Made by a program: the position numbers and the translations under genes. Below are positions 37,811 through 39,676 of a stretch of DNA of 64,000 nt, piece after piece (within the stretch, counting starts at the first letter, position 1; each line of letters opens with the position of its first letter). The notes beneath the pieces are model-generated. The model saw only the letters and a program-made list of their open reading frames with translations, ran no database searches and was not told the DNA's origin. The DNA is from Rhizobiales bacterium Ga0077537 (GTDB lineage: Bacteria > Pseudomonadota > Alphaproteobacteria > Rhizobiales > Hyphomicrobiaceae), in contig LNEM01000028.1 of assembly GCA_001464955.1 (NCBI GenBank), positions 1 to 64,000 on the forward strand. The letters run 5' to 3'.

Positions 37811-38338
37811 TCACGCCTTGCGCAACAGCAGCGCCTCGAGTTCCGCCACGGTCGCGCGTGCTCGCGCTTCGAGCCCCGCATCGCCCGCGTTGCTGATCGG
37901 ATGCTCGATCACCGAGAACGGATAGCCCGGCATGCCGAGCACCTTTGCCATCAGCGTCGCCGCCGAGACGAACCGTGTCGTCATCACGCCCACCGCCGGG
38001 ACGCCCTGACGCTCTGCCATGATGCTGTCGTGCAAACTGCACGATGAACAGGAGCCTCAGTCTCCGATGCCGGTGACCGCCGCGTGCCACTGGCGGATCT
38101 CGTCGACGATGTGCTTGTCGGCCGGCGCGCTGTAGTTCGACTTCGTCCGCATGACGATGCGCGCGACCCCGTGCTCCTCCTGCAGGATGCGGCCGAGGTG
38201 TCCGAAATACTCTTTCGTCCCCTCCTTGCCGTTGGAGATGAAGCCGATGGTCGTACCGCGCAGGGAAAGCAGCCGCTGAGCCGCCTCGCCCGTCGCGGGC
38301 TTGGCCTCGTTGGTCGGATCGAGAACGCGAAGGGTCAT
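37811..38338 (-). CDS. UGSC-family selenoprotein (in-frame TGA read as selenocysteine)
   Basis: The frame from ATG 38338 to TGA 37811 encodes 175 residues with one internal TGA at 38059-38057, codon 94. Around it the product reads GIGD-U-GSCSSCSLHDSIMA, the UGSC motif of a known but uncharacterised (seleno)protein family in which a Cys- or Sec-Gly-Ser-Cys pair is probably a redox site. Downstream, in the same frame, about 80 codons are open and protein-like (RQGVPAVGVMTTRFVSAATL). AAGGAGCG lies upstream of the start. A bSECIS-type hairpin follows the TGA, listed separately. A partner gene of unknown function ends 26 bases upstream. Treating the TGA as a stop would give a 93-residue fragment ending exactly before the motif. 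A random nonsense mutation cannot be excluded, but the motif and hairpin make it unlikely. Sec incorporation needs selA, selB, selC and selD elsewhere in the genome. Confidence 0.85.
38028..38059 (-). promoter_or_regulatory. bSECIS-like hairpin directly after the selenocysteine TGA
   Basis: Read on the minus strand, 12 bases after the TGA (38059-38057) comes TCGTGCA, a 3-base loop GTT and TGCACGA, a perfect 7-bp stem at 38044-38028. The loop starts 19 bases after the TGA and its first base is G. These values fall within the known requirements for bacterial SECIS elements (loop at roughly 16-37 bases, G at the start of the loop). The element lies inside the coding sequence, as bacterial SECIS does, and would bind SelB. 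Confidence 0.7.
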
Positions 38339-38364
38339 GAAAAGCGCTCCTTGGGAGAGATTTC

Positions 38365-39429
38365 TCAGGCGGGCTTGGCCGGCTCGGGCCCGCAATCGAC
38401 GCAGGCGCCGATCGGCACCGTGACGGCCTTGGTCTTGTGTCCCATCCAGGGCGGGATCACCGCGCCGAAGCCGCCGGCCGGACCGCCGGCCCCGACGACG
38501 AGCAGGTGCTCCGGGCTTTCGAGCGCCGTGTAGACGCTCTCGCCCCGGTCGCGCACCACCGCGCCCTTGCCGACCTCGCCCCATTCCTTGCGCTGGATGC
38601 GGGCCCGCTCGTAGAGGAAGCGGCCGATATCGGCCTTCGACCATCCGGCCGCCTGCAACTGGTCGCGAAGCTGCTTCGGCACGACGATGCAGTAGTTGCC
38701 CCCATAGATCGAGTAATGCCGCTGGTTGCCGCGCATCTCGGCGGCAAACGTTTCGAGCAGTTCTTCCGGCTCGTGCGTCCACTCGTTCATGAGTTGCCGC
38801 GGCCCCATGGCCGCCATCACCGTGACGGCGGACAGCCCCGCCGGCACCCCGCGCATCTGCGCGAGCGGCGTCCAGGTCATGTCCTCCTCGTCCTCGGCGA
38901 TGCAGTACGAGTACTTGCCGGGGTGCCCGAGCGTCGACCGGTCGATGGCGCCGGGGCGCACGTCGAGCACGTTGATGAGCCCGAGGCGGATCGCACGCCC
39001 GATCGAGGCCGTCGCCCGGTCGCTGTTGGCAAGCGCGTTGAACCCGCCCGACGCCCCGATCTCCTTGCGGATCGGCCCGTTGATGATCACGAGAACCGCG
39101 CACCCGCCCGTGGACGACGTCGTCCCGTGGAGCAGGAATTCCTCTTTCAGCATCCCCTGCCAGGCCGCCACCACGACCGGGAAATGCATCGGCAGGCAGC
39201 CGGCCATGACGGCGTTGATGGCGATCTTCTCGGCCGTGATCGCCTGCTCGCGCACCGGCTCGATACCGATGAGCTGATCCGGCGTCATGCCCGCCCAGTC
39301 GAGGCACGCGAGCACGGCGGCCTCCGTCGGCGGCACCACGGGGAGACCGTCGGTCCAGCCGTTGGAATGGTAGAGTTCCTGGGCGGCCATGAGGTCATCG
39401 ACCTCGTAAGTGCGGGACGTGAGCGGCAC
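38365..39429 (-). CDS. Protein of unknown function, upstream partner of the UGSC selenoprotein
   Basis: I do not recognise the family of this 354-residue protein. The GTG start at 39429 has AAGGAGCC seven bases upstream and is preferred to an ATG at 39519. Visible features are a conserved-looking N-terminus (HSNGWTDGLPVVPPTEAAV), Gly/Ser-rich blocks (TTSSTGGCAVLVIING, and GGNYCIVVPKQL), LLVVGAGGPAGGFGAV, and a CVDCG Cys pair six residues before its end that could be a redox or metal site. No signal peptide or membrane helix is seen. It ends 26 bases before the selenoprotein start on the same strand, so the two likely work together. A palindrome at 39485-39502 lies upstream as a candidate operator. 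Confidence 0.75.
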   Translation of the reverse strand: MPLTSRTYEVDDLMAAQELYHSNGWTDGLPVVPPTEAAVLACLDWAGMTPDQLIGIEPVREQAITAEKIAINAVMAGCLPMHFPVVVAAWQGMLKEEFLLHGTTSSTGGCAVLVIINGPIRKEIGASGGFNALANSDRATASIGRAIRLGLINVLDVRPGAIDRSTLGHPGKYSYCIAEDEEDMTWTPLAQMRGVPAGLSAVTVMAAMGPRQLMNEWTHEPEELLETFAAEMRGNQRHYSIYGGNYCIVVPKQLRDQLQAAGWSKADIGRFLYERARIQRKEWGEVGKGAVVRDRGESVYTALESPEHLLVVGAGGPAGGFGAVIPPWMGHKTKAVTVPIGACVDCGPEPAKPA

Positions 39430-39484
39430 GGGCAGGCTCCTTGCGGCGGCCAGAAGGCGACATGAGAAACTGCCAGCCGACACA

Positions 39485-39502
39485 ACATGATAGTCATCAT
39501 GT
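39485..39502. promoter_or_regulatory. Palindromic candidate operator upstream of the UGSC operon
   Basis: ACATGAT and ATCATGT are exact inverted arms separated by AGTC, 56-73 bases upstream of the GTG start at 39429. The position and form fit a dimeric transcription factor such as a GntR-type regulator. The regulator is not identified. Confidence 0.45.
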
Positions 39503-39676
39503 GGATACCCGCGCAACACTTGCCGATCGTTCCGGACCCGACTTCTTCCAACGAAACAAACTTTGGATTAGTATAGATTCTAAGCTGGCATCCGTTGCAC
39601 GGCTCATCGCACAATGATAATGGACCAAATAAATCATACTTGAATATGCCGATCAAATTAATCAGGGGGCAGAGAG

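Follow-up and report, generated by a model that had tools for sequence, protein, structure and literature searches.

The closest described systems are the glycine/sarcosine/betaine and D-proline reductases, whose subunits GrdB and PrdB perform selenolate chemistry on C-N bonds (PMC13188914, PMC10838667), and a GrdB-like complex of Cloacibacillus, FarB/FarE, that has been proposed to cleave the C-F bond of monofluoroacetate (PMC10838667). The UGSC proteins were described in 2008 among marine and freshwater selenoproteins and counted at the time among the commonest selenoproteins of environmental samples, chiefly non-marine ones (PMC2398784). As to partners, the literature gives only one fusion to a domain called 'Unknown_1' (PMC2398784). 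A review from 2026 still lists UGSC as uncharacterised and groups it with the Trx-fold proteins (PMC13188914).

We analyzed a stretch of 64,000 nucleotides (positions 1 to 64,000 of contig LNEM01000028.1 of Rhizobiales bacterium Ga0077537), hereafter called the window, which contains a further member of this family. The features of the locus are as follows.

37811..38338, minus strand: UGSC family selenoprotein gene, 175 codons, Sec predicted at codon 94 (PF24696, NF041046, translation, dN/dS)
38057..38059, minus strand: TGA codon in frame, putatively read as selenocysteine (translation, TGA conservation in relatives)
38346..38351 (within a few bases), minus strand: Shine-Dalgarno-like AAGGAG ahead of the UGSC start (sequence)
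38028..38044, minus strand: bSECIS hairpin, 7-bp stem TCGTGCA/TGCACGA with loop GTT (sequence; conservation and covariation in 55 sequences)
38365..39519, minus strand: partner gene P of an unnamed family, start at 39519 or nearer 39435, adjoining or fused to UGSC across phyla

The UGSC frame begins with ATG and ends with TGA; its only internal TGA is codon 94. A preliminary description of this DNA had proposed one frame running from 38338 to 37811 with this TGA as its only interruption, and translation indeed gives 175 residues, with the motif GD-U-GSCSSC around codon 94, where UGSCSSC corresponds to UxxCxxC. The assignment to the UGSC family made there was borne out by a match to Pfam PF24696 of 163.1 bits, for a gathering cut-off of 25. 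Like the other members, the protein possesses the UGSC motif with Sec or Cys at the site; unlike those of the NCBI equivalog NF041046, it scores 111.7 bits (with Cys in place of Sec) against a cut-off of 125, and we therefore consider it as a member of the family outside NCBI's strict group.

We then surveyed UGSC genes in 395 genomes, comprising the source genome and its relatives, and obtained 33 genes in 16 genomes. Exactly one in-frame TGA was present in 29 of the 33 genes and none in 4, which excludes a sequencing error. The part of the gene located 3' of the TGA yielded dN/dS values of 0.14-0.39 against seven relatives, indicative of purifying selection and in agreement with the protein-like character ascribed to it earlier. 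Relatives ending at the same TGA without the downstream half had been named as a finding that would overturn the selenoprotein reading; the opposite was found, as relatives retain this half and display Sec or Cys at the site. Since TGA is also used as a true stop elsewhere in the genome, for example as the last codon of the UGSC gene itself, the codon has not been reassigned genome-wide.

The machinery for selenocysteine insertion, whose absence would likewise have spoken against the gene, is complete in the source genome: selA, selB and selD were each found above their curated cut-off, and a tRNA-Sec gene (selC) above the Rfam cut-off, also recognized by ARAGORN, with anticodon TCA. Among the 16 UGSC genomes, full selA was found in 10 and selA fragments in 3, which are fragmented assemblies. 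G271, whose sole UGSC copy is of the Cys form, has no selA, and none was found in G065 (83% complete) and G359 (94% complete) despite their TGA-type UGSC copies. G137, with Cys-only UGSC, does carry selA, and full selA is present in 3 of 20 genomes of the same family devoid of UGSC.

In bacteria, a bSECIS element is a hairpin downstream of the UGA with its loop about 16-37 nt away and an early G. A stem TCGTGCA/TGCACGA with loop GTT was found exactly where the preliminary description had placed it, the stem beginning 12 bases and the loop 19 bases past the TGA. The folding of the RNA that had been proposed as a check showed the single-sequence fold to be ordinary (z = -0.12). All seven pairs also survive in 1316 of 20000 (6.6%) synonymous recodings of the window gene, so that the hairpin in one sequence proves little. 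Among 55 distinct sequences of the Sec type, 34 have all six outer stem pairs intact; in 500 synonymous recodings this number averaged 7.2 and never exceeded 14. Within this Sec-type set, 24 sequences have G-C and 23 have C-G at pair 20-26; both bases change together, in step with Cys/Trp and Leu/Phe/Val substitutions in the protein. The Cys-type sequences (n=6) retain three to five of the seven pairs, and several subfamilies without the main stem show, as judged by eye, another hairpin close by. The hairpin is thus conserved and covarying, and protein-coding constraint is insufficient as an explanation. Its GTT loop 19 nt past the TGA and its covariation are those of a bSECIS element.

One could assume that the TGA is a real stop, the UGSC gene being a broken pseudogene or its downstream half a chance open frame. 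Indeed, the normal code reads TGA as a stop, other genes of this DNA end with it, and the hairpin is ordinary when folded alone. This explanation is nevertheless extremely improbable in view of the conserved TGA, the purifying selection downstream of it, the covariation in the hairpin and the full Sec machinery. Altogether, these sequence data support the selenoprotein reading of the preliminary description and confirm 37811-38338 on the minus strand as one whole recoded gene, with selenocysteine predicted at TGA codon 94. That description had overlooked the gene P upstream, a second UGSC copy in the genome and the relationship to GrdB/PrdB.

The second UGSC gene of the source genome lies at L108:7960-8475 on the plus strand (contig C30:729959-730474). 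Its Sec is again at codon 94, and one stem pair of its hairpin is swapped (TCGTGGA/TCCACGA).

P is located directly upstream of UGSC in the window, its stop codon 26 bp ahead of the UGSC start, and matches nothing in Pfam or NCBIfam. In loci found through UGSC alone, P lies alongside in 26 of 30; it is not within 1.5 kb of UGSC in L036, which lies at a contig end, L041, L043 and L047. Conversely, in public genomes a UGSC domain was found beside or fused to P in 33 of 36 loci detected through P alone. Both gene orders occur, P-UGSC and UGSC-P, together with many single-chain fusions; UGSC and P share one chain in loci from Chloroflexi, Proteobacteria and Acidobacteria. From these order swaps and fusions we infer, as a strong sign, a function common to UGSC and P. 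No conserved operon extends beyond P, the recurring neighbour types varying among loci. Two cysteines of P, C80 and C178 (numbering of the 356-residue reading), are kept in most members. It may be, as a guess, that P is the 'Unknown_1' domain fused to UGSC in the literature.

Some members of this set deserve mention in their own right. The fused-form relatives L079 and L080 have neither Sec nor Cys at the active site, and the UGSC-P fusions L079:3177-4862 and L085:7299-9038 start with an apparent signal peptide. In two loci from Poribacteria (L062, L063), P is present and no UGSC domain was found nearby. We also considered P as a relative of GrdE (hhalign, 0.1% against one GrdE-type protein) and as a relative of UGSC itself (no similarity in profile comparison), and rejected both. 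Searching the sequences of solved structures with the UGSC and P profiles gave no meaningful match, and a model of a natural UGSC-P fusion (pLDDT 87.3) retrieved nothing convincing in a fold search that barely probed the P part.

A flavoprotein gene similar to thioredoxin reductase recurs in the neighborhood. The second UGSC locus of the source genome displays the order TrxR-like flavoprotein, UGSC, P, and such genes adjoin UGSC or P in L049, L050, L051, L069 and L081-L083 and lie 1.1 kb off in L076; none is adjacent to the UGSC locus of the window. All those inspected at the sequence level show a CxxC, and genes of this kind with CxxC flank UGSC in the second locus of the source genome and in L049, L050, L069 and L081-L083. 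As the scanned ones match TIGR01292 below the cut-off, we call them TrxR-like and not proven thioredoxin reductases. The other recurrent neighbours belong to acid and CoA metabolism and to uptake. A CaiB/BaiF CoA-transferase abuts P or UGSC in L025, L027, L040, L056, L064 and L065, an enoyl-CoA hydratase abuts UGSC in L043 and L047, and peptide-type, TctC and TRAP binding proteins occur near UGSC/P loci. In the window, the opposite strand carries genes for a CoA-transferase, a 2-hydroxyacid dehydrogenase, an LLM-type oxidoreductase and an enoyl-CoA hydratase, none of them more than 5 kb away. In one Chloroflexi genome (L070-L075), many paralogous UGSC-P fusions stand amid genes for family-5 extracellular binding proteins, as if each paralogue served a different imported substrate.

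Two alternative functions have to be weighed against these neighbours. UGSC and P could detoxify an electrophile, a metal or a metalloid that is bound by the Sec. Selenocysteine is strongly nucleophilic, and heavy-metal handling has been proposed for some selenoproteins of unknown role (PMC13188914). However, no metal, arsenic or mercury families stand among the neighbour tallies listed, and acid/CoA metabolism and uptake are found instead, which makes this role unlikely. The CoA-transferase and hydratase neighbours would suit a non-reductive reaction on an acyl-CoA, such as an isomerisation, an elimination or a lyase reaction with Sec as nucleophile or base, and the predicted fold resembles, at a common alpha/beta level, that of PurE and other non-redox enzymes. 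We hold this for improbable as well, given that the UxxC pair and the TrxR-like neighbours indicate redox turnover.

The AlphaFold model of the window UGSC protein (pLDDT 93.3, pTM 0.87) alternates strands and helices over ten elements, Sec94 being positioned where a helix begins. The thioredoxin order beta-alpha-beta-alpha-beta-beta-alpha is not seen in this model, and the domain search gave no Trx-family hit among the matches listed. The predicted structure of UGSC is thus an alternating alpha/beta fold, against the thioredoxin-like fold of the literature. Structure matches obtained with Foldseek and VIA-align comprise common alpha/beta folds only. The best of them (Z 11.7; 132 residues, 3.0 A) is 8s7v_H, one chain from the activation complex of methyl-coenzyme M reductase; it ties with a designed protein and was therefore not taken as function.

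This fold bears on a further possibility, in which UGSC would have a thioredoxin-like fold and act as a general thiol-disulfide oxidoreductase, with P as its protein substrate. The UxxC motif and the TrxR-like neighbours agree with it, and UGSC is placed among proteins of thioredoxin-like fold in the review and in the 2008 paper (PMC13188914, PMC2398784). On the other hand, the topology of the model and the missing Trx-family match speak against it, as do the constancy of P as partner and the catabolic neighbours. We regard this possibility as rather unlikely.

A relationship of another kind emerged from profile comparison. With hhalign, UGSC residues 72-150 aligned to a profile of twelve GrdB/PrdB-family proteins, taken from the same genomes, with a probability of 92.5% over 70 columns, the Sec of UGSC falling on the Sec/Cys of GrdB/PrdB. 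Eight column shuffles and one reversal stayed at or below 0.5%, and 88.2% remained after the motif had been masked. The GrdB/PrdB-family proteins found mostly stop at a TGA just before the UxxC motif, after which the frame continues. UGSC is thus a probable distant relative of the GrdB/PrdB Sec domain, as judged by profile alignment. As a PF07355 match to UGSC (46 members) is not listed at E <= 1 and GrdE/PrdA (PF09338) was not found in the source genome, we do not file UGSC as a GrdB/PrdB member.

The source genome also has two PF07355 genes with an in-frame TGA in a UPVC motif, L092 (C25:127208) and L093 (C9:261789), which are probably further selenoproteins. CaiB/BaiF CoA-transferases, already noted as neighbours of UGSC-P, are also found close to GrdB/PrdB-like genes in L090, L091 and L109.

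We propose, with about an even chance of being right, that UGSC and P form a two-component Sec-dependent reductase working like GrdB/PrdB, with UGSC as catalytic subunit and, most likely, an imported organic acid as substrate. The model builds on what the sequences show, namely the recoded gene with its hairpin, a complete Sec machinery, P as constant partner, neighbours that recur and a profile resembling that of GrdB/PrdB. From there we infer that the two proteins form a complex and that the selenolate attacks as a nucleophile, as well as the class of substrate and the path of the electrons. SelB, directed by the hairpin, would insert selenocysteine at the UGA to give the full-length selenoprotein. 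A transporter would import the organic acid, which the CoA-transferase may activate. Within the alternating alpha/beta domain, Sec94 and Cys97 would constitute a redox pair, and by analogy with GrdB/PrdB the selenolate would attack a small organic acid or its CoA thioester, bound or polarised by P, at a polarised carbon-heteroatom bond. The resulting Se-S bond could be re-reduced by the TrxR-like flavoprotein or another thiol system. Several observations count against the model: the missing PF07355 match of UGSC, a partner P that does not resemble GrdE, the failure to find GrdE/PrdA in the source genome, a window locus with no TrxR-like gene next to it and with its CoA-transferase and hydratase on the other strand, the four UGSC loci without P, and the fused relatives L079 and L080 with neither Sec nor Cys.

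With a constant, unannotated partner P, another predicted fold and a link to GrdB/PrdB, a family labelled 'function unknown' can now be put to the test as a two-protein enzyme. Genes such as this one are split and hidden when automatic annotation halts at UGA. More tentatively, and at somewhat less than even odds, UGSC/P could stand for an unrecognised class of Sec-dependent GrdB/PrdB-like reductases across Proteobacteria, Chloroflexi, Acidobacteria and others, which would split a carbon-heteroatom bond of organic acids taken up by the cell, or of their CoA esters, and would rely on a partner unrelated to GrdE/PrdA and a dedicated TrxR-like flavoprotein as electron donor.

A parallel can be drawn with the glycine/sarcosine/betaine and D-proline reductases (GrdB/PrdB, PF07355). 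UGSC shares with them the UxxC motif, extended to UxxCxxC, located after a strand and before a helix, which itself is followed by a GIPTV-like strand, as well as a Sec in register by profile alignment and, presumably, a two-subunit arrangement. It differs from them in being smaller than GrdB, in having no direct Pfam match and in its partner P, which is unrelated by sequence to GrdE/PrdA. FarB/FarE of Cloacibacillus, likewise encoded by two genes and Sec-dependent, is a substrate complex related to GrdB whose operon includes a transporter (PMC10838667); unlike UGSC/P, it consists of direct GrdB/GrdE homologues in anaerobes.
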